From the NCBI GenBank assembly GCA_017627955.1, contig JAGAFU010000051.1, positions 1-58,170 of the forward strand: a stretch of DNA of 58,170 nucleotides, read 5' to 3'. Source of the stretch: Bacteroidales bacterium (lineage in GTDB: Bacteria; Bacteroidota; Bacteroidia; Bacteroidales; UBA932). How positions within the stretch are numbered: the first letter of the stretch is position 1; each line of letters opens with the position of its first letter. This document shows, piece after piece, positions 11,325 to 57,618 of the stretch. The translations under genes and the position numbers were made by a program. Under the pieces are notes generated by a model, which saw only the letters and a program-made list of their open reading frames with translations, did no database searches and was not told where the DNA came from.

Positions 11325-11451
11325 GGCCCAGGAAAGCTATTTCTGGGCCGGGGGCTTATGGTATGCCCTTCATTGGGCCCGGGAAAGCTATTTCTGGGCC
11401 GGGGGCTTATGGTTTGCCCATCATTGGGCCCGGGGACGCCATTTCTGGGCC
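11325..11451. repeat. REP-like hairpin array (3 x 51 bp) at the RAYT 3' end
   Basis: Three 25-bp palindromes lie at 11325-11349, 11376-11400 and 11427-11451, each 51 bp from the next. Copies 1 and 2 differ at one base. The arms are GGCCCAG/CTGGGCC; in copy 1 the stem extends to 11 pairs (11324-11334 with 11340-11350, one G-T wobble) closing a 5-base loop. The 26-bp spacers are also nearly identical. The last palindrome ends 2 bp before the RAYT stop codon. It lies between the 3' end of RAYT and the start of the EEP gene. Confidence 0.92.
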
Positions 11452-11453
11452 GG

Positions 11454-12415: not shown

Positions 12416-12444
12416 ACTAAAAATATTCGTGGTTGTGCTTTGTG

Positions 12445-12573
12445 GCCCAGGATCGCCATTTCTGGGCCGGGGGCTGGATAATCCTGATTTCTCGGACCAG
12501 AATCGTCTGTTTAGGGCCTGGCGGGACTGAGAAAAAACAATTCGGGACCGAAATCAGAAGATCCGGTCCCGAA
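12445..12573. repeat. REP-like hairpin array upstream of RAYT
   Basis: A 25-bp palindrome at 12445-12469 has the same GGCCCAG/CTGGGCC arms as the array on the other side of RAYT and the same orientation, including the following GGGGGCT. A degenerate second copy (12494-12518, GGACCAG...GGGCC) and a third, strongly base-paired copy (12541-12573) follow at spacings of 49 and 51 bp. The third serves as the stem of the pckA terminator. Confidence 0.8.
12531..12573 (-). terminator. Rho-independent terminator of pckA
   Basis: On the minus strand, TTCGGGACCG (12573-12564) pairs perfectly over 10 bp with CGGTCCCGAA (12550-12541) around a 13-base loop and is followed by TTGTTTTTT. It begins 19 bp after the pckA stop codon. 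The hairpin resembles the kinase-gene repeat units (CCGAAATCAG ... TCCGGTCCC). Confidence 0.85.
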
Positions 12574-23876: not shown

Positions 23877-25043
23877 CTATTCAATAACGAGGCCGTCGTA
23901 GGCTGGCTGGACCACCGAGTGGATGTTCCGCTCGGCGCATAGGCGTTTCAGTTCCTGGCTGAACTGCTCGTGGACGGGGAATGAGTGAGAGAGGTGGGTG
24001 AGCCAGGTGAACTGGGGGCGGATGCGGTCGGCGAGGGCGAGGGTTTCGTCGAGGCTGAAGTGGGAGTGGTGGGGTTTGTAGCTCACCGTGTTGAGTGTCA
24101 GGTGTTTCAGTCCTTCCAGTTTGGCGAATTCACTTTCCGGGATAGAGCTCATGTCGGTAATATACGCTATGTCCCCGAACCGGAACCCCAGCACCGGTAA
24201 TTTATCATGCAGCCCCCGTATAGGGGTCACTATCGTTCCCCCTGATACGGGGACTGAATCAACCCCCCTGCGCCCCCTAGGGGGACTGAGGGGCGTTCCC
24301 CTCAGACTCCCTGCGTCGCTTCGCTCCGAGTCGCTGGAGGGAGCGGTAGCTGCCAGTCTGGCAGGCTCAACCCATGCCACCCTCGGCACTGTAAGAGGGG
24401 GGACCGGAGCGGAACGAAGTGAAGCGAGCGGTGGGGCCGAGCGGAGCGAGGCGGTTGAGCCGTCAGAGCTGGCAGCTACCGCTTTAGGGGCTTCGTCGAT
24501 CATATCGTCAAGCGAGCGGGCGGTGGGGATGAGCTGGCCGTCGGGAAGGCGGTAGTGATAGCCGACGTCGTGGACCCAGACGAGTTCCTTGTCGGAAGAA
24601 TCTTTGCGGATGATAAACGGCCTCTCATCGATCACATGGAGCATCCACTCGGGCGCCCCCGGATACTTCGGAAACTTGAAGACATAGGGATATTCCCGGA
24701 TCAGGTCCTCCAGGACACTTCTCTCGCAATATATCTCCGCAGCACGACGATCCACATAGTTCAGCGAACGCACATCATCCAGCCCGCCAGTATGGTCCTT
24801 GTGGTTGTGCGTCAGTAAGATAGCGTCGAGATGGCTGATCCCGAGCCGGAGCATCTGCATCCTGAAATCGGGCCCGGCGTCCACCAGAATCGTCAACCCC
24901 TCATATTCAACTAGCGCGGATGCCCTGAAACGCTTGTCACGCTCGTCTTTCGAACGGCACACCTCACACTTGCAGCCGATGATCGGCACTCCTTGCGAAG
25001 TCCCGGTCCCAAGAAAAGTCAATCTGGCCCTGCCTCCTGTCAT
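23877..25043 (-). CDS. MBL-fold metallo-hydrolase (PhnP-like) with inserted repeat
   Basis: Start 25043 overlaps the mtaB stop (ATGA) and gives 388 residues. Metal-binding HNHKDH is at 79-84; the N-terminal pattern LTFLGTGTSQGVPIIGCKC and the later AYITDMSSIP, LNTVSYKPHHSHFS and LTHLSHSF segments fit the PhnP/ElaC-like branch, usually about 255 residues. The substrate is unknown; relatives are phosphodiesterases. Residues about 187-270 (Ser/Pro/Ala/Arg-rich) are extra and are coded by palindromic repeat DNA at 24233-24485. The insertion lies before VTPIRGLHDKLPVLGF, probably in a surface loop. It is the last gene of the minus-strand operon. Confidence 0.85.
   Translation of the reverse strand: MTGGRARLTFLGTGTSQGVPIIGCKCEVCRSKDERDKRFRASALVEYEGLTILVDAGPDFRMQMLRLGISHLDAILLTHNHKDHTGGLDDVRSLNYVDRRAAEIYCERSVLEDLIREYPYVFKFPKYPGAPEWMLHVIDERPFIIRKDSSDKELVWVHDVGYHYRLPDGQLIPTARSLDDMIDEAPKAVAASSDGSTASLRSAPPLASLRSAPVPPLTVPRVAWVEPARLAATAPSSDSERSDAGSLRGTPLSPPRGRRGVDSVPVSGGTIVTPIRGLHDKLPVLGFRFGDIAYITDMSSIPESEFAKLEGLKHLTLNTVSYKPHHSHFSLDETLALADRIRPQFTWLTHLSHSFPVHEQFSQELKRLCAERNIHSVVQPAYDGLVIE
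24342..24483. repeat. 142-bp palindromic element (type A), copy 1, inside the MBL gene
   Basis: Ends are a perfect 15-bp inverted repeat, AGCGGTAGCTGCCAG (24342-24356) and its complement (24469-24483), with a second inner pair GGCTCAAC/GTTGAGCC (24364-24371, 24454-24461). A core with a 44-bp identical stretch and GAGCG/AAGCG-rich sequence is shared with 44154-44295. It is read in frame as coding sequence of the MBL gene. Just outside, 24233-24320 holds further hairpins: CCCCCTAGGGGG, and CTGAGGGG/CCCCTCAG with a CGTT loop. Confidence 0.9.
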
Positions 25044-26497
25044 AGTACAATGTCCTCTATAGTGTTTACCCTCGAAGGGTCCCAAGGCCTCTCGACCCTG
25101 ATGTAATTGCCTGAATATCCGCCCATCATCCCATCCTTTACGTCCGACTCCCAAAGCACCTGGGAAAGCCGTCCCCGGTTCTTCTGAACGAACTCCTCGT
25201 GGAGGCTTTCGCAAAGGCCCTCAAGCCTCGCCACCCGTTCGGTCTTGATGGAATCCCTGACCTGGTCCTTCCAGCCCGCGGCGACTGTTCCGGGCCTGCG
25301 GGAATAGGGAAACACATGGATAAACGCCGGTTTCACCCTATCTTTCAGGAATGAATATGTCTTCTCGAATAGCTCGTCCGTCTCACCAGGAAGGCCGGCG
25401 ATCACGTCTATCCCGAAGAAGACGTAAGGCTTGAGGTTGCCCTCTGGCTCTCCGGGCCTGGGGTCCATCACGGAGCGGATGTAGTCAATCCTCTCGGCGA
25501 AGAATTCAGTCGTGTAACGCCTCCTGACCCTTTGGAGGATCTCGTCGGCGCCGGATTGGAGGGGAATATGGAAATGTGGCTGGAACTTCGTCCCGGAGGC
25601 GATCCAGTCCACTATCTCTTCTGTGATGAGGTTCGGTTCTATTGATGAGATCCTGTATCTTTCAATGCCTTCCACGTCATTGAGACGCTTGAGCAGTTCA
25701 AGGAAGGTCTCGCCGGTTGTCCTTCCGAAGTCGCCGGTGTTGACTCCGGTGATGACTATTTCCTTAACTCCTGTTGAGGCGATTGCCTTGGCTTGGGCGA
25801 TGGCGTCGGCGATGGGGATGTTGCGGGATAGGCCGCGGGCGTAGGGGACTGTGCAGTAGGCGCAGAAGTTGTCGCAGCCGTCTTGTACCTTCAGGAATGA
25901 CCGGGTGCGTTCTTCTGAGGAGTACGCCTCGAGAATGGTGGTTCGGCTCCGCTCACCAACCATGGTTCGACTCCGCTCACCAACCGCTTTGTCTGAGTCG
26001 GCGGGAGGTATTGCCCCCGCCGGGCCTGGCCGCCCGTGGCCAGGTGAGCGGGAGGGGCCCAGATCGCCGGAGGGGAAGGGAAAACTTGTTTTCACTGACT
26101 CTCCAAGAGATGGGAGGGATTTACCCGCCGGGGACAATACCTCCCTCCGACTACCAACGCCAAGAAGGGCGAGCGTGTCGGGGACGACGCGGGTTTTGTC
26201 GGCGGCACCAAACACAAGCGCCACACCCTCAATGGCTTCCAAATCCTCCCGCCGAAGCTGCGCATAGCATCCCGTCACCACGATCCGAGCCTCAGGAGAC
26301 ACCCGATGGACCTTGCGGATGACATTGCGGCACTTCTTCTCGGCCCGCTCTGTCACCGAGCAAGTGTTGACCAGATACACATCCGCCTTATCCTCCCACT
26401 GGACAACCTCGAGACCAGCGGCCACGAAACCCCGCTCGTAAGTGGAAGTCTCGGCGTAATTGAGCTTGCAGCCAAGTGTGAGGAAGGCTATTTTCAT
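25040..26497 (-). CDS. mtaB: tRNA threonylcarbamoyladenosine methylthiotransferase MtaB
   Basis: The 485-residue protein is a radical-SAM methylthiotransferase that converts t6A37 to ms2t6A37 in tRNA. The N-terminal cluster ligands are C10 (LTLGCKLN), C46 (VNTCSVT) and C77 (VTGCYAQ). The radical-SAM cluster is C208/C212/C215 in QDGCDNFCAYC, after the family motif ERTRSFLKVQDG. GLPGETDE and a short C-terminal TRAM-like domain follow. Relatives are about 430-440 residues; the excess is residues about 116-187, a Pro/Gly/Ser/Arg-rich stretch between the N-terminal and radical-SAM domains, coded by repeat DNA at 25936-26152. FolB is 2 bp upstream. Confidence 0.93.
   Translation of the reverse strand: MKIAFLTLGCKLNYAETSTYERGFVAAGLEVVQWEDKADVYLVNTCSVTERAEKKCRNVIRKVHRVSPEARIVVTGCYAQLRREDLEAIEGVALVFGAADKTRVVPDTLALLGVGSRREVLSPAGKSLPSLGESVKTSFPFPSGDLGPSRSPGHGRPGPAGAIPPADSDKAVGERSRTMVGERSRTTILEAYSSEERTRSFLKVQDGCDNFCAYCTVPYARGLSRNIPIADAIAQAKAIASTGVKEIVITGVNTGDFGRTTGETFLELLKRLNDVEGIERYRISSIEPNLITEEIVDWIASGTKFQPHFHIPLQSGADEILQRVRRRYTTEFFAERIDYIRSVMDPRPGEPEGNLKPYVFFGIDVIAGLPGETDELFEKTYSFLKDRVKPAFIHVFPYSRRPGTVAAGWKDQVRDSIKTERVARLEGLCESLHEEFVQKNRGRLSQVLWESDVKDGMMGGYSGNYIRVERPWDPSRVNTIEDIVL
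25937..26145. repeat. Palindromic repeat insertion (type B plus short element) inside mtaB
   Basis: Imperfect 22-bp inverted arms lie at 26003-26024 and 26124-26145 (two mismatches), bounding 143 bp. Inside, 26051-26118 matches 44364-44431 at 60 of 68 bases without gaps and contains GAAAACTTGTTTTCAC. Next to it, 25937-25961 is identical over 25 bp to the complement of 41961-41985 in the M64 gene, and a variant copy of that unit follows at about 25964-25986. Confidence 0.85.
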
Positions 26498-40648: not shown

Positions 40649-42045
40649 TCCAGCTCCTTCGTGTAGAAATCTATCATGTACCTGATCGCCTCACGGCAGA
40701 CAGGACAGAATGACGGGTAAGAGTTGGTCAGCATCCGGCAGTCCGGAAAACCTCTCCAAACCCCTTTGCTCTGATAGCCGCCGCCCTCGTAAAGGTCGAC
40801 GGCTGTTTTTTTGCCCACCGGCTTCTTGCCCTTCCAGTTGATGGAAGTGTCATCACTGCCGAATTCCTGTCCCTTCAGGCTTCTCCATTTCGAATCGAAA
40901 TCCTTCATGGTCGTGATGTTACGCTCCCAAGGCTCGACATCGGGGTAGTAGTACTCCGAATACTGGTCGTCGTAGTAATACTCGTCGGCGAGGCCGGCGA
41001 AACTGTGGCCGAACTCATGGACCACCACGGGGCGGAAACCCGAGTGATGGGCGGTCGTCAGGGTGTAGGAATTGTAGATTCCACCTCCGCCGTAAGTGTC
41101 TGTGTTGGCGAGGATTATGATGTGCTCGTAGGGGATTCCGGCCAGTACATCGTGGAGTTGGAAGAGGTGCAGGGTAGTGAGGTATCTCTCGGTGTAGAAA
41201 GAATCGAAGTTCGAGCCGACCGCTGTCTCCTTCCAGAGGCCCTCTCTCGGCACGCTGACTCCGCTGTCTCTCGAGGGAGCCTTGACGCAGACCAGGTTGA
41301 ACCTATCCTTCATCGACCTGAACGGCTCGTGGGCCCAGAGGCTGGCCATAGCCTCCCGGGCATCGGCCATAAAGGTGTCCATCTCCTCCTGGGTGTACCC
41401 TTCGGCCACGATCGCCACATCGATCCGCTCATCGCTCTTGGGGTCAGAATCCAGGTCCTCGCCGCCTTTCCAGATCCATTCGTGGGGAGTGGGATTCATT
41501 CCGACAGGCCTAATGAGGATGTCCGCGGGATCGACGATGTGGGAATATGAGCACGACACATGGCCGTCCCTGAAGTCGAACAGTTCCACGGTGATCTTGG
41601 CTTCCTCGGATGGCATGGGCACGAGGAACACGTTCTCGAAGCCTTTTGCCAGTTTGGTCGCCTCTTCGGTTGGCTGCCATTCCTGGAACAGTGTTGAGAA
41701 GGAGGTGGCATAGATAACTTTGTCGTAGTCAGCGCCTTCCGCAGATTTTACCCGCATTGTGATCTGGCCGTTTCCCCGGAGGGGGACTTTGTCGAGGTTG
41801 ACTCGTTTTCCGGCCCAGCCGTCGATCGAGCATAGTTCGGCGAGGGTGATTGACTGGGTTTTGTCTGTGCCGCTGAAGATGTAGTTGAGACGGAGAGTCT
41901 TGGTGAAGTCCAACCGCCCTTCGGCTCCGCTCAGGGACCGGTTGGTGAGCGGTAATGCCCGGTTGGTGAGCGGAGCCGAACCACCGGCCAAAGACAGGTT
42001 AAGCGACATGGCAATCAACGCTGCCAAAGAAACTAACCTTTTCAT
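40645..42045 (-). CDS. Exported M64 (IgA peptidase) family metalloprotease
   Basis: Start 42045 (MKRLVSLAAL) gives 466 residues. The Zn-binding HEFGH begins at H343 (VVVHEFGHSFAGLADEYY), with an Asp/Glu-Tyr-rich third-ligand region, and upstream there is the typical RIDVAIVAEGYTQEEMDTF (split in two). The N-terminal propeptide-like domain is about 48-150. M64 enzymes of gut bacteria include IgA-cleaving and broader proteases; substrate here is unknown. Residues about 23-45, right after the signal peptide (GGSAPLTNRALPLTNRSLSG), are coded by a 61-bp palindromic insert. The gene follows the PatB-like gene by 6 bp. Confidence 0.9.
   Translation of the reverse strand: MKRLVSLAALIAMSLNLSLAGGSAPLTNRALPLTNRSLSGAEGRLDFTKTLRLNYIFSGTDKTQSITLAELCSIDGWAGKRVNLDKVPLRGNGQITMRVKSAEGADYDKVIYATSFSTLFQEWQPTEEATKLAKGFENVFLVPMPSEEAKITVELFDFRDGHVSCSYSHIVDPADILIRPVGMNPTPHEWIWKGGEDLDSDPKSDERIDVAIVAEGYTQEEMDTFMADAREAMASLWAHEPFRSMKDRFNLVCVKAPSRDSGVSVPREGLWKETAVGSNFDSFYTERYLTTLHLFQLHDVLAGIPYEHIIILANTDTYGGGGIYNSYTLTTAHHSGFRPVVVHEFGHSFAGLADEYYYDDQYSEYYYPDVEPWERNITTMKDFDSKWRSLKGQEFGSDDTSINWKGKKPVGKKTAVDLYEGGGYQSKGVWRGFPDCRMLTNSYPSFCPVCREAIRYMIDFYTKELD
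41920..41980. repeat. 61-bp palindromic insert behind the M64 signal peptide
   Basis: TTCGGCTCCGCTCA (41920-41933) and its exact complement (41967-41980) bound two direct copies of GGTTGGTGAGCGG (about 41939-41952 and 41961-41973). Bases 41961-41985 are identical to the complement of 25937-25961 in mtaB, so the same unit is translated in opposite orientation and into different peptides in the two genes. Confidence 0.85.
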
Positions 42046-43313: not shown

Positions 43314-44837
43314 TTAATTTATCTGTCTGTAATAGATTGTCTTAAGGGCTTCGCCCTGGTTGTCGGGATGTAGGATGGCGGCCAGGTCCAGCAGCACGAG
43401 ATCCGGGCGGGCCACGCCGCTTTGCCAGATGTCGTTGCCGCCTTTGGAGTTCACCCTTTTGTTGTCGTTCCAGACCACCGGGTAGCTTCCATAGCCGAGT
43501 TCAGCGGCGTTGCTCTCGATGTTCCCGAGAATGTCCTTGAATATGGGGTTCACTCCCAGGAGGTCTTTACGGGTGTGGCACCAGCCGGTGTTGAGCCAGC
43601 AGTCGGCTTCCTGGCTTAAGGTGTAGGCTTTCTCGACCGGCATCACGCTTGAGGCCGCCTTGCCTTTCTCGCAGCCGAGGACTTCTCCGCCAGCGTCGCG
43701 GATCAGGGCGGTCAGGTAGCTGTCTTCAGAGGGGACGAACCATTGGTCGTTGTAAGGAATATTGAGGAGCACCTTCCTGGGCGCCTCTTTTCTGTCCTTG
43801 ACTTCGGCCGCTATGGTGTTGTAGCTTTTCGTCACTTCAGCGAGGATCGAGTCGGCGGCGGCCATCCGGCCGGTCAGCGCGCCGAAAAGACGGATGTAGG
43901 CGGCTCGGGCCAGCGGATGTCGCTCCAGGTGCTCGTTGACCGTAAACACCTTTATACCAAGTTGTTCCAGCTTCGTCTCAAAAGGCGACTTGGCCCCCGA
44001 AACGGCATACGTCAGCACCACATCCGGCCCCAGCCCCACGATCTTCTCATAATCCGGCGCCGCGTCGTACCCGACATCGGCTGGGGTGGATTGTGATCTG
44101 GCGGCAGGCTCTGGCAGTCCGGACTCCTCGCTTCGCTCCGAGTCTCCAGCGGCAGCTGTCGGAGCCAGCTCTGAAGGCTCGACCGCCTCGCTACGCTCGG
44201 CCCCACCGCTCGCTACGCTGCGCTCCGCTCCGGTCCCCCCTCTTACAGTGCCGAGGGTGGCATGGGTCTCGCCATCCAGACTGGCTCCGACAGCTTCTCT
44301 CTTCTCACTGGCAGTAGGCAGGTCTGGCAAGTCCGGACCGTGGACGCCCTCGTCACGCAAGAGGGAGGGGCCCATATCGAAGGAGAGGAGGTGAAAACTT
44401 GTTTTCACAGACTCTCCGAGAGATGGGAGGGGCCGAGCGAAGCGAGGAGTCCGGACTGCCAGAGCCTGCCTACTGCAGACGAGGGCGGTCGAGCCGCCAG
44501 AGCTGGTCTCGGAGGCAGTTTTGTCTGTGTAAAGATAATCGGGACCGGAGATGCCGACGATGCGGTCGGTGGCGCCGAGAGCATCGAGGAAGCCATAGTG
44601 GGAAGTGCTCATCGCGACAAGGCGACTAAAGGGCCGGTCGATGACCAGGGAATCCCTTGAGCCGTCAAAAGGGGAGACGGACACCACGGTCCATCCCCCC
44701 TCAGGCCTCTCAAATATCTCCAGGAACCGAGGCTCCGAGACATCACGACCACCGTCGCCAACCACCTTGCCACCACAGGAACACACCAAAGCCCCCAATG
44801 CGGCAAAAAGAAAAATATGGCGACGGAAGATATTCAT
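43314..44837 (-). CDS. ABC transporter substrate-binding lipoprotein (BtuF/FecB type) with large repeat-derived insert
   Basis: The 507-residue protein has lipobox VCSC. The fold is the Fe/B12 periplasmic-binding type: SRLVAMSTSHYGFLDALGATDRIVGIS opens the first lobe, then YEKIVGLGPDVVLTY, a long helix, and VPSEDSYLTALIRDAGGE in lobe 2. Relatives are about 370 residues. The excess, residues about 105-253 between GPDYLYTDK and DVGYDAAPDYEK, is Ser/Ala/Glu/Arg-rich and coded by composite palindromic DNA (44078-44525). The insert falls between two conserved fold elements, likely in a loop near the ligand site. No permease or ATPase gene is adjacent. It begins directly at the exonuclease stop. 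Confidence 0.85.
   Translation of the reverse strand: MNIFRRHIFLFAALGALVCSCGGKVVGDGGRDVSEPRFLEIFERPEGGWTVVSVSPFDGSRDSLVIDRPFSRLVAMSTSHYGFLDALGATDRIVGISGPDYLYTDKTASETSSGGSTALVCSRQALAVRTPRFARPLPSLGESVKTSFHLLSFDMGPSLLRDEGVHGPDLPDLPTASEKREAVGASLDGETHATLGTVRGGTGAERSVASGGAERSEAVEPSELAPTAAAGDSERSEESGLPEPAARSQSTPADVGYDAAPDYEKIVGLGPDVVLTYAVSGAKSPFETKLEQLGIKVFTVNEHLERHPLARAAYIRLFGALTGRMAAADSILAEVTKSYNTIAAEVKDRKEAPRKVLLNIPYNDQWFVPSEDSYLTALIRDAGGEVLGCEKGKAASSVMPVEKAYTLSQEADCWLNTGWCHTRKDLLGVNPIFKDILGNIESNAAELGYGSYPVVWNDNKRVNSKGGNDIWQSGVARPDLVLLDLAAILHPDNQGEALKTIYYRQIN
44103..44470. repeat. Composite palindromic element inside the binding-protein gene (type A copy 2 plus type B)
   Basis: Outer arms of 36 bp (44103-44138 and 44435-44470) are exact complements. 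Inside lies the 142-bp type A element at 44154-44295, with perfect 15-bp arms AGCTGTCGGAGCCAG and its complement, in opposite orientation to the MBL-gene copy. The other half (about 44316-44470) is a type B element; 44364-44431 matches mtaB 26051-26118 at 60 of 68 bases. All of it is open coding sequence on the minus strand. Confidence 0.92.
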
Positions 44838-57303: not shown

Positions 57304-57618
57304 TGCGGCGGTGAGCGGAGCCTCGATCTTCGGGCGGCTTTCCCTGAAGCAAAGGGTTTTTCGAAGGATAACCTCTATCGCATGGGTCAGTTCTACCGGT
57401 TTTATTCCGGCCAAAATGAAATTGTGGCACAAGTTGTGCGACAATTACAACCCATTGAGAATAAGGAAAATACATTTGTGGCACAAGTTGTGCCACAAAT
57501 TAAGGACGCACTGGTTGTCGATGCCGATAGCGCACCGGTGGAAGAGTTTCCATACTTCTTGGGTATGATACCTTGGGGCAGTAGGAAGGATGCTCATTGT
57601 GAGGGTTGGTTGATTTGA
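57304..57618 (+). pseudogene. Fragment of a YhcG/DUF1016 PD-(D/E)XK nuclease gene
   Basis: After a TGA at 57301 the frame reads LDLRAAFPEAKGFSKDNLYR, MGQFYRFYSGQNEIVAQVV, and later YFLGMIPWGS. These are the core blocks of the DUF1016 N-terminal domain (L-x-DL-x-FP-x-GFS-x-NL-x-M-x-FY ... IPWGHH). The usual His-His and all of the C-terminal nuclease domain are missing; the last 20 residues (SRKDAHCEGWLI) are unrelated. The part between Q and the IPWG block is also degenerate, with two near copies of VAQVV. Such genes often accompany type I restriction systems; none is visible here. Confidence 0.65.

Follow-up and report, generated by a model that had tools for sequence, protein, structure and literature searches.

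Probable mobile palindromes with a folded core in genes of one genus of uncultured Bacteroidales

The window (the whole 58,170-nucleotide stretch of Bacteroidales DNA that was analysed) contains members of what is probably a family of small palindromic elements, mobile but non-autonomous and built round a structured core, belonging to one genus of uncultured Bacteroidales; we suspect that this genus is Cryptobacteroides. According to this explanation, template switching between the two arms during replication would re-copy one arm from the other, and the same process would occasionally flip the core in place. New copies would be made in trans by an activity recognising the folded core, and selection acting on the fold of the nucleic acid, beyond the peptide alone, would keep the core unchanged. 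Features of the MITE type are present (small size, terminal inverted repeats and no internal transposase). Palindromic elements that code for protein are familiar above all from Rickettsia and Wolbachia; the present family adds a large example from another phylum, for which host genes, orthologous sites and both orientations are available. A stronger version is put forward tentatively, as a possibility we rather doubt: a bidirectionally coding, invertible mobile element, in which the two strands carry different peptides in inversion-linked frames and the folded core is selected copy by copy, genus-wide, for a nucleic-acid function. If true, an invertible element could enter essential genes, or flip inside them, without breaking them.

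The original prediction described two 142-bp elements in unrelated genes of the window, and this observation is confirmed. Copy 1 (24342..24483, core on the plus strand) lies inside the gene of a metallo-beta-lactamase-fold (MBL) protein (23877..25214, minus strand; Pfam) and is read antisense (..STASLRSAPPLASLRSAPVPPLTVPRVAWV..). Copy 2 (44154..44295, core on the minus strand) lies inside the gene of a Peripla_BP_2 binding protein (43314..44837, minus strand; Pfam) and is read in sense (..THATLGTVRGGTGAERSVASGGAERSEAVE..). The two are therefore oppositely oriented relative to their hosts, and both are read through without stops. They align without gaps as reverse complements (86% identity) and have an identical run of 44 nt in common (ACCCATGCC...GGAGCGGA, counted by eye). 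In core orientation, their 15-nt arms (AGCGGTAGCTGCCAG/CTGGCAGCTACCGCT vs. AGCTGTCGGAGCCAG/CTGGCTCCGACAGCT) show four differences, each compensated on the opposite arm (by eye). The structural model (R1), built from 45 sequences that include these two, found copy 1 at 24345-24480 (E 5e-35) and copy 2 (E 1.3e-34). With this model the window holds four related copies and a partial match at 44541-44589. The third is a longer element of type B (166 nt, 44311..44476, plus strand; R1 66.9 bits, E 2.2e-15), which adjoins copy 2 in the same binding-protein gene with its core oppositely oriented. The fourth is a diverged relative (25998..26150, plus strand; R1 36.6 bits, E 1.4e-07) situated, by Pfam spacing, between the UPF0004 and radical-SAM domains of a protein (25040..26497, minus strand; Pfam) that we take to be MiaB-like. 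A MiaB-like gene of another genome (G114, L307:425-541) also carries a relative of the element, with the pseudoknot pair described below changed to CCCGC/GCGGG.

A covariance-model search of the genome and its relatives, as proposed with the original prediction, revealed a dispersed family in both orientations and in many host genes. In the own genome, a search with the element as query gave 15 matches at E<=1.6e-14, query included, and ten further weaker or partial ones; chance is excluded, the 14 matches following the query having E values from 4.3e-58 to 1.6e-14. The element was detected with the structural model in 143 of the 200 species sampled from the genus (up to 16 candidates scored per genome). 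Whether homologous proteins in distant taxa have the same insert was put to a weak test: of the 247 genomes sampled from the order, 4 matched, the own genome included, the other three being one of the same family and two of other families. These matches outside the genus (L160-L168, in G325, G377 and G407) represent another genus of the same family plus two further families. Eight matches were read in the three genomes, seven without a covering open frame of more than 220 aa and one in a 578-aa frame; such relatives, mostly beyond long open frames, may be an older form of the family. Among the contigs of GTDB 220, 45 stretches contain the exact 38-nt core; every one bears Bacteroidales or Bacteroidia in its title, and Rickettsiales were absent among these exact matches. 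An omasum or rumen sample is named in five of the titles, and names of the RUG/RUI type presumably indicate rumen. No prior description in Bacteroidales was found in the open-licence literature, judged by titles and the starts of abstracts.

The alignment of 45 copies gave the following order from the outside inwards: P1 (arms of about 28 nt), P2 (loop ACCCTC), a probable pseudoknot (CCCTC/GAGGG), P4 and P5. In copy 1, all on the plus strand, the left arm of P1 is at 24345..24372 (model positions 1-28) and the right arm at 24453..24480 (model positions 109-136). Between them lie the P2 hairpin CATGCC[ACCCTC]GGCA(C)TG (24373..24391; three of the six P2 pairs covary), the probable pseudoknot (24380..24399; loop CCCTC at 24380-24384 with GAGGG at 24395-24399) and, from the alignment and pairing analysis, the P4 hairpin ACCG..CGGT with a variable tip (24403..24432) and the P5 hairpin (24437..24451). 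The core is nearly invariant across copies and the arms are variable. The P1 arms differ in sequence among copies yet pair, with two-sided changes at 27 of the 28 pairs. Paired cells amounted to 86.0% in the 45 copies, compared to 70.9% after shuffling and 37.0-45.8% when the partners were slid; cells changed on both sides numbered 356 vs. 141 after shuffling. A second set, which overlaps partly with the first, consisted of 34 matches that had been fitted to the model, and in it 93.1% were paired vs. 62.0% shuffled. Thus, the further copies did not bring the non-covarying arms that would speak against the original prediction, but many more copies with covarying arms. The pseudoknot sequences were invariant in the 45 aligned copies. 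In a larger set of 153 copies, 143 had CCCTC/GAGGG, two had the compensated form CCCGC/GCGGG (both altering one and the same pair) and one had another pairing, while seven failed the strict test of P2 plus pseudoknot, some of them through a P2 mismatch. The core comprises three hairpins (P2, P4 and P5) and probably the pseudoknot, for which the argument is mainly its invariance.

The positions of the copies in genes were analysed in the own genome and seven high-scoring genomes. Among the matches listed, 118 were read, and ten of type B or aberrant were set aside (one aberrant copy has a SpoU methylase as its host, by Pfam), leaving 108 of the main type. Seventy-three of them were in genes, at 30 host sites that we assigned from long open frames and clustering, and 35 were elsewhere, a share on which the sampling of high-scoring matches from high-scoring genomes bears. 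Copies occupy intergenic DNA as well as in-frame positions that separate the conserved blocks of conserved proteins. Pfam analysis of 20 representative hosts identified RsmB/F, TrmO, IPP transferase (MiaA), AICARFT (PurH), LytB (IspH), chorismate synthase, 2-oxoacid dehydrogenase E2, GHMP kinase (presumably IspE), rRNA adenine dimethylase (KsgA), DnaX, RecQ-type helicase, semialdehyde dehydrogenase (which we take to be ArgC), FtsK, QueH and methionine synthase; the host labels Fmt and GH3 are our own assumption from the sequence. Such genes are natural experiments on how housekeeping enzymes tolerate an added segment of about 45 residues, in one version or the other.

All but one of the 73 in-gene copies use two frames, one per orientation (39 sense, 33 antisense), the sole exception being the IspE copy L295. 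The probability of this restriction is about 10^-6 if one copy is counted per site and any open frame per site is allowed. Of 82 long-frame copies, 67 had three to five of the six frames open; the use of two frames is therefore not imposed by stops alone. The two frames are related by inversion about the arms, and consequently an insertion or a flip preserves the reading frame of the host; with this design, both arm conversion and inversion are harmless to it.

Several orthologues lack the element. At TrmO, the insert is missing from genome G017, whose site reads E F S A N Q A P D S F Q, and from other orthologues, and the same is true of most aligned orthologues of the MBL and binding proteins, indicating that the element was inserted and is not ancestral. 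The empty sites in species-level relatives were too diverged for insertion boundaries or a target site duplication to be read. The MBL gene of G017 (L072) has just SSGGSTA in place of the whole insert seen in the own gene, a sequence that resembles the scar of an in-frame deletion. Orthologues that carry inserts have them at or near the same residues.

Both orientations were present at 10 of the 17 sites with at least two scored copies, and at 12 if L314 (FtsK) and L260 (GlpC) are added. The clearest case is MiaA. A variant of P2 (GTG..CCACG) occurs in 4 of 153 copies, all of them in MiaA; it is antisense in G000 and G096 and sense in G176 and in the genome of L140. A core variant restricted to MiaA and present in two orientations shows, on sequence comparison, an apparent inversion in place. 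The arms of the MiaA-variant copies (GGAGGTATAGTCCCCTC and GGGAGGTGTCCCCTC) are altered on both sides, and the alterations include a three-base difference in length. At TrmO, L002 and L044 are antisense and L028 is sense with arms in common, L028 having extra sequence. By contrast, the flipped RsmF copy of G096 has quite different arms, as have the oppositely oriented PdhC copies, and these orientation differences are possibly new insertions.

Template switching during replication best explains the matched arms together with the flips. Switching between inverted repeats homogenises arms and inverts the spacer, in coding DNA too, as reported in the accessible part of PMC8604942. Both arm matching and spacer inversion are thus known products of template switching (see also PMC8794818), and one process would explain arms and flips. 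The spacer here is about 80 nt, whereas the yeast spacer inversions presented in the accessible part of PMC8604942 are of a few bases. The original prediction left it between selection and a copying mechanism to keep the hairpin; since template switching would account for the matched arms, selection need not be invoked for them, and the part that we retain for selection concerns the core. The present case helps to part mutation from selection in the long-standing question of compensated hairpin arms: in the MiaA orthologues arm conversion is accompanied by inversion, the combination expected from template switching.

Identical cores in mixed orientations are also expected from repeated re-insertion, or gene conversion, from copies of the same genome, with no selection on single copies, and we consider this a serious but less probable account. 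The flipped RsmF copy with its different arms agrees with it, as do the P2 subtypes, which differ between genomes and, at AroC, between genomes at one site. The comparison of 59 parsed copies gave results in both directions. P4 loops were identical in 25 of 220 pairs from different sites of the same genome compared to 84 of 1422 pairs differing in both site and genome, in favour of recopying; however, they were identical in 15 of 68 same-site pairs. Inner arms were also shared more often by same-site pairs from different genomes (17 of 68) than by different-site pairs from one genome (9 of 220), with 20 of 1422 among the other pairs. Site memory and genome likeness both exist: copies within one genome are somewhat more alike than expected, and recopying is thereby allowed. 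The MiaA-only core variant, common to four species, speaks against this account.

Conservation of the core was analysed in 70 orthologue pairs, of which 18 were unscored (the core pattern failed) and two GH3 pairs at different sites (L266-L300, L267-L300) were dropped. In the remaining 50 same-site pairs, the two 52-nt cores were identical in 28 and reached an identity of 90% or more in 44, at host third-codon-position identities of 0.41-0.85; the figure for the core is biased upward, copies having been found via a conserved-core model and 18 of the 70 pairs being unscored. All six pairs below 90% involve G096. From the frame phases we deduce that, in this register, the third positions of the sense and antisense readings fall together. 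Two-strand coding would therefore not protect them, and either nucleic-acid constraint or recopying is needed. The constraint on the core exceeds what coding alone explains.

A functional structured RNA or DNA site that acts in cis in regulation, processing or chromosome organisation, with each copy under selection, would account for cores that are identical, wobble positions included, while host third positions have diverged, and for inserts kept at or near the same residues. We nevertheless regard it as unlikely, because both orientations occur in genes, Rfam gave no match over the element (the window at the gathering threshold; seven loci at E<=10) and the copies classed as intergenic have no fixed orientation to their neighbours (+/+ 15, -/- 8, +/- 7, -/+ 5 and one open; n=36). 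A cis-regulatory RNA was also sought via orientation bias, and was rejected as no clear bias appeared among these 36 copies. The preferred explanation, mobile elements with selection on the fold, has points against it as well: the seven pseudoknot failures, the IspE frame exception, and decay in L051 (without most of the right arm) and L070 (without part of the core).

The transfer of the element by a RAYT (Y1 transposase), as a REP-like element, appears improbable. Such genes are common in the genus (PF01797 in 143 of 200 species), and element and PF01797 co-occur (120 of 200 species with both, 23 and 23 with one only, 34 with neither; odds ratio 7.7, p=2.8e-9), but this statistic ignores relatedness and genome completeness, and PF01797 was the one transposase family run. 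A copy was present at only 1 of the 20 RAYT loci examined, about 0.9 kb from the gene, and no link of the element to a transposase or polymerase emerged. The flanks of the RAYT genes have other small hairpins (L234-L253) which, by eye, are unlike it. REP/RAYT systems resemble the present one in their dispersed hairpin repeats; here the element is longer, with a structured core and in coding regions, and a copy lies near just 1 of the 20 RAYT genes examined.

It is very doubtful that the arms are pre-existing target palindromes into whose loops the core alone was inserted. The arms differ between sites and some intergenic ones are terminator-like (L009), but one inner arm, TCTGGATGGCGAGA, is common to the binding-protein, TrmO, MBL and L262b sites. 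Insertion of the core into existing hairpins was not supported at TrmO, where the empty site of G017 has no palindrome by eye. An intron-like or bypassed insert, absent from the protein, is scarcely credible: conserved proteins are interrupted by a highly structured sequence, but all 73 in-gene copies have a core length divisible by three, vs. 21 of 35 others (p=1.7e-8), and frames are open in both orientations.

The original prediction compared the element to the Rickettsia palindromic elements (RPEs), and this likeness stands in part. The element appears to work like RPEs, and we liken the two by way of working, with no claim of family membership. RPEs and their Wolbachia counterpart, according to the accessible parts of PMC2229807, PMC3767692 and PMC10969869, are palindromic repeats of about 100-150 bp (105-146 bp), lying in intergenic DNA or, in frame, within conserved genes, for some RPE groups at the same site in orthologues; here too a dispersed palindrome is in frame in unrelated genes. 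The differences are the other phylum and more than a palindrome: a conserved core, a probable pseudoknot, one main frame per orientation, apparent in-place inversion and the same sites filled in both orientations in related species. In RPEs, the identity of the repeat is reported to fade with time (accessible part of PMC6649704), whereas the core is largely undecayed in the copies found here, a core-model sample biased upward. Coding palindromes of Nematomorpha mitochondria have perfect inverted arms that are kept matched in protein genes, with template switching proposed as one mechanism; they are in animal mitochondrial genes, and the accessible part of PMC6649704 describes no conserved dispersed core. 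The enterobacterial and neisserial MITEs ERIC/RU-1, YPAL/RU-2 and NEMIS are small palindromic repeats with ORFs, sometimes forming in-frame fusions, and are primarily intergenic in the account given in the accessible part of PMC2229807, whereas the in-gene copies predominate in our high-scoring sample.

Other repeats were noticed in the window. The MBL insert has, after copy 1, a second conserved stretch (24260..24332, reading DSERSDAGSLRGTPLSPPRGRRGV; limits by eye), a second dispersed in-frame repeat with two short hairpins by eye, which is also found behind the element in L039 (MBL) and L102 (the binding protein of G017). A short palindromic repeat (GGCCCAGGAAAGCTATTTCTGGGCCGG) is present in three copies with 51-nt spacing at 11325-11453, and in another copy 1 kb off (12444-12470). 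A hairpin-like sequence (TTGTGGCACAAGTTGTGCCACAA) occurs as two 32-nt copies with 54-nt spacing at 57413-57498. A perfect 25-nt inverted pair (GGTGGTTCGGCTCCGCTCACCAACC; 25937-25961 and 41961-41985, about 16 kb apart) is perhaps another small dispersed repeat.
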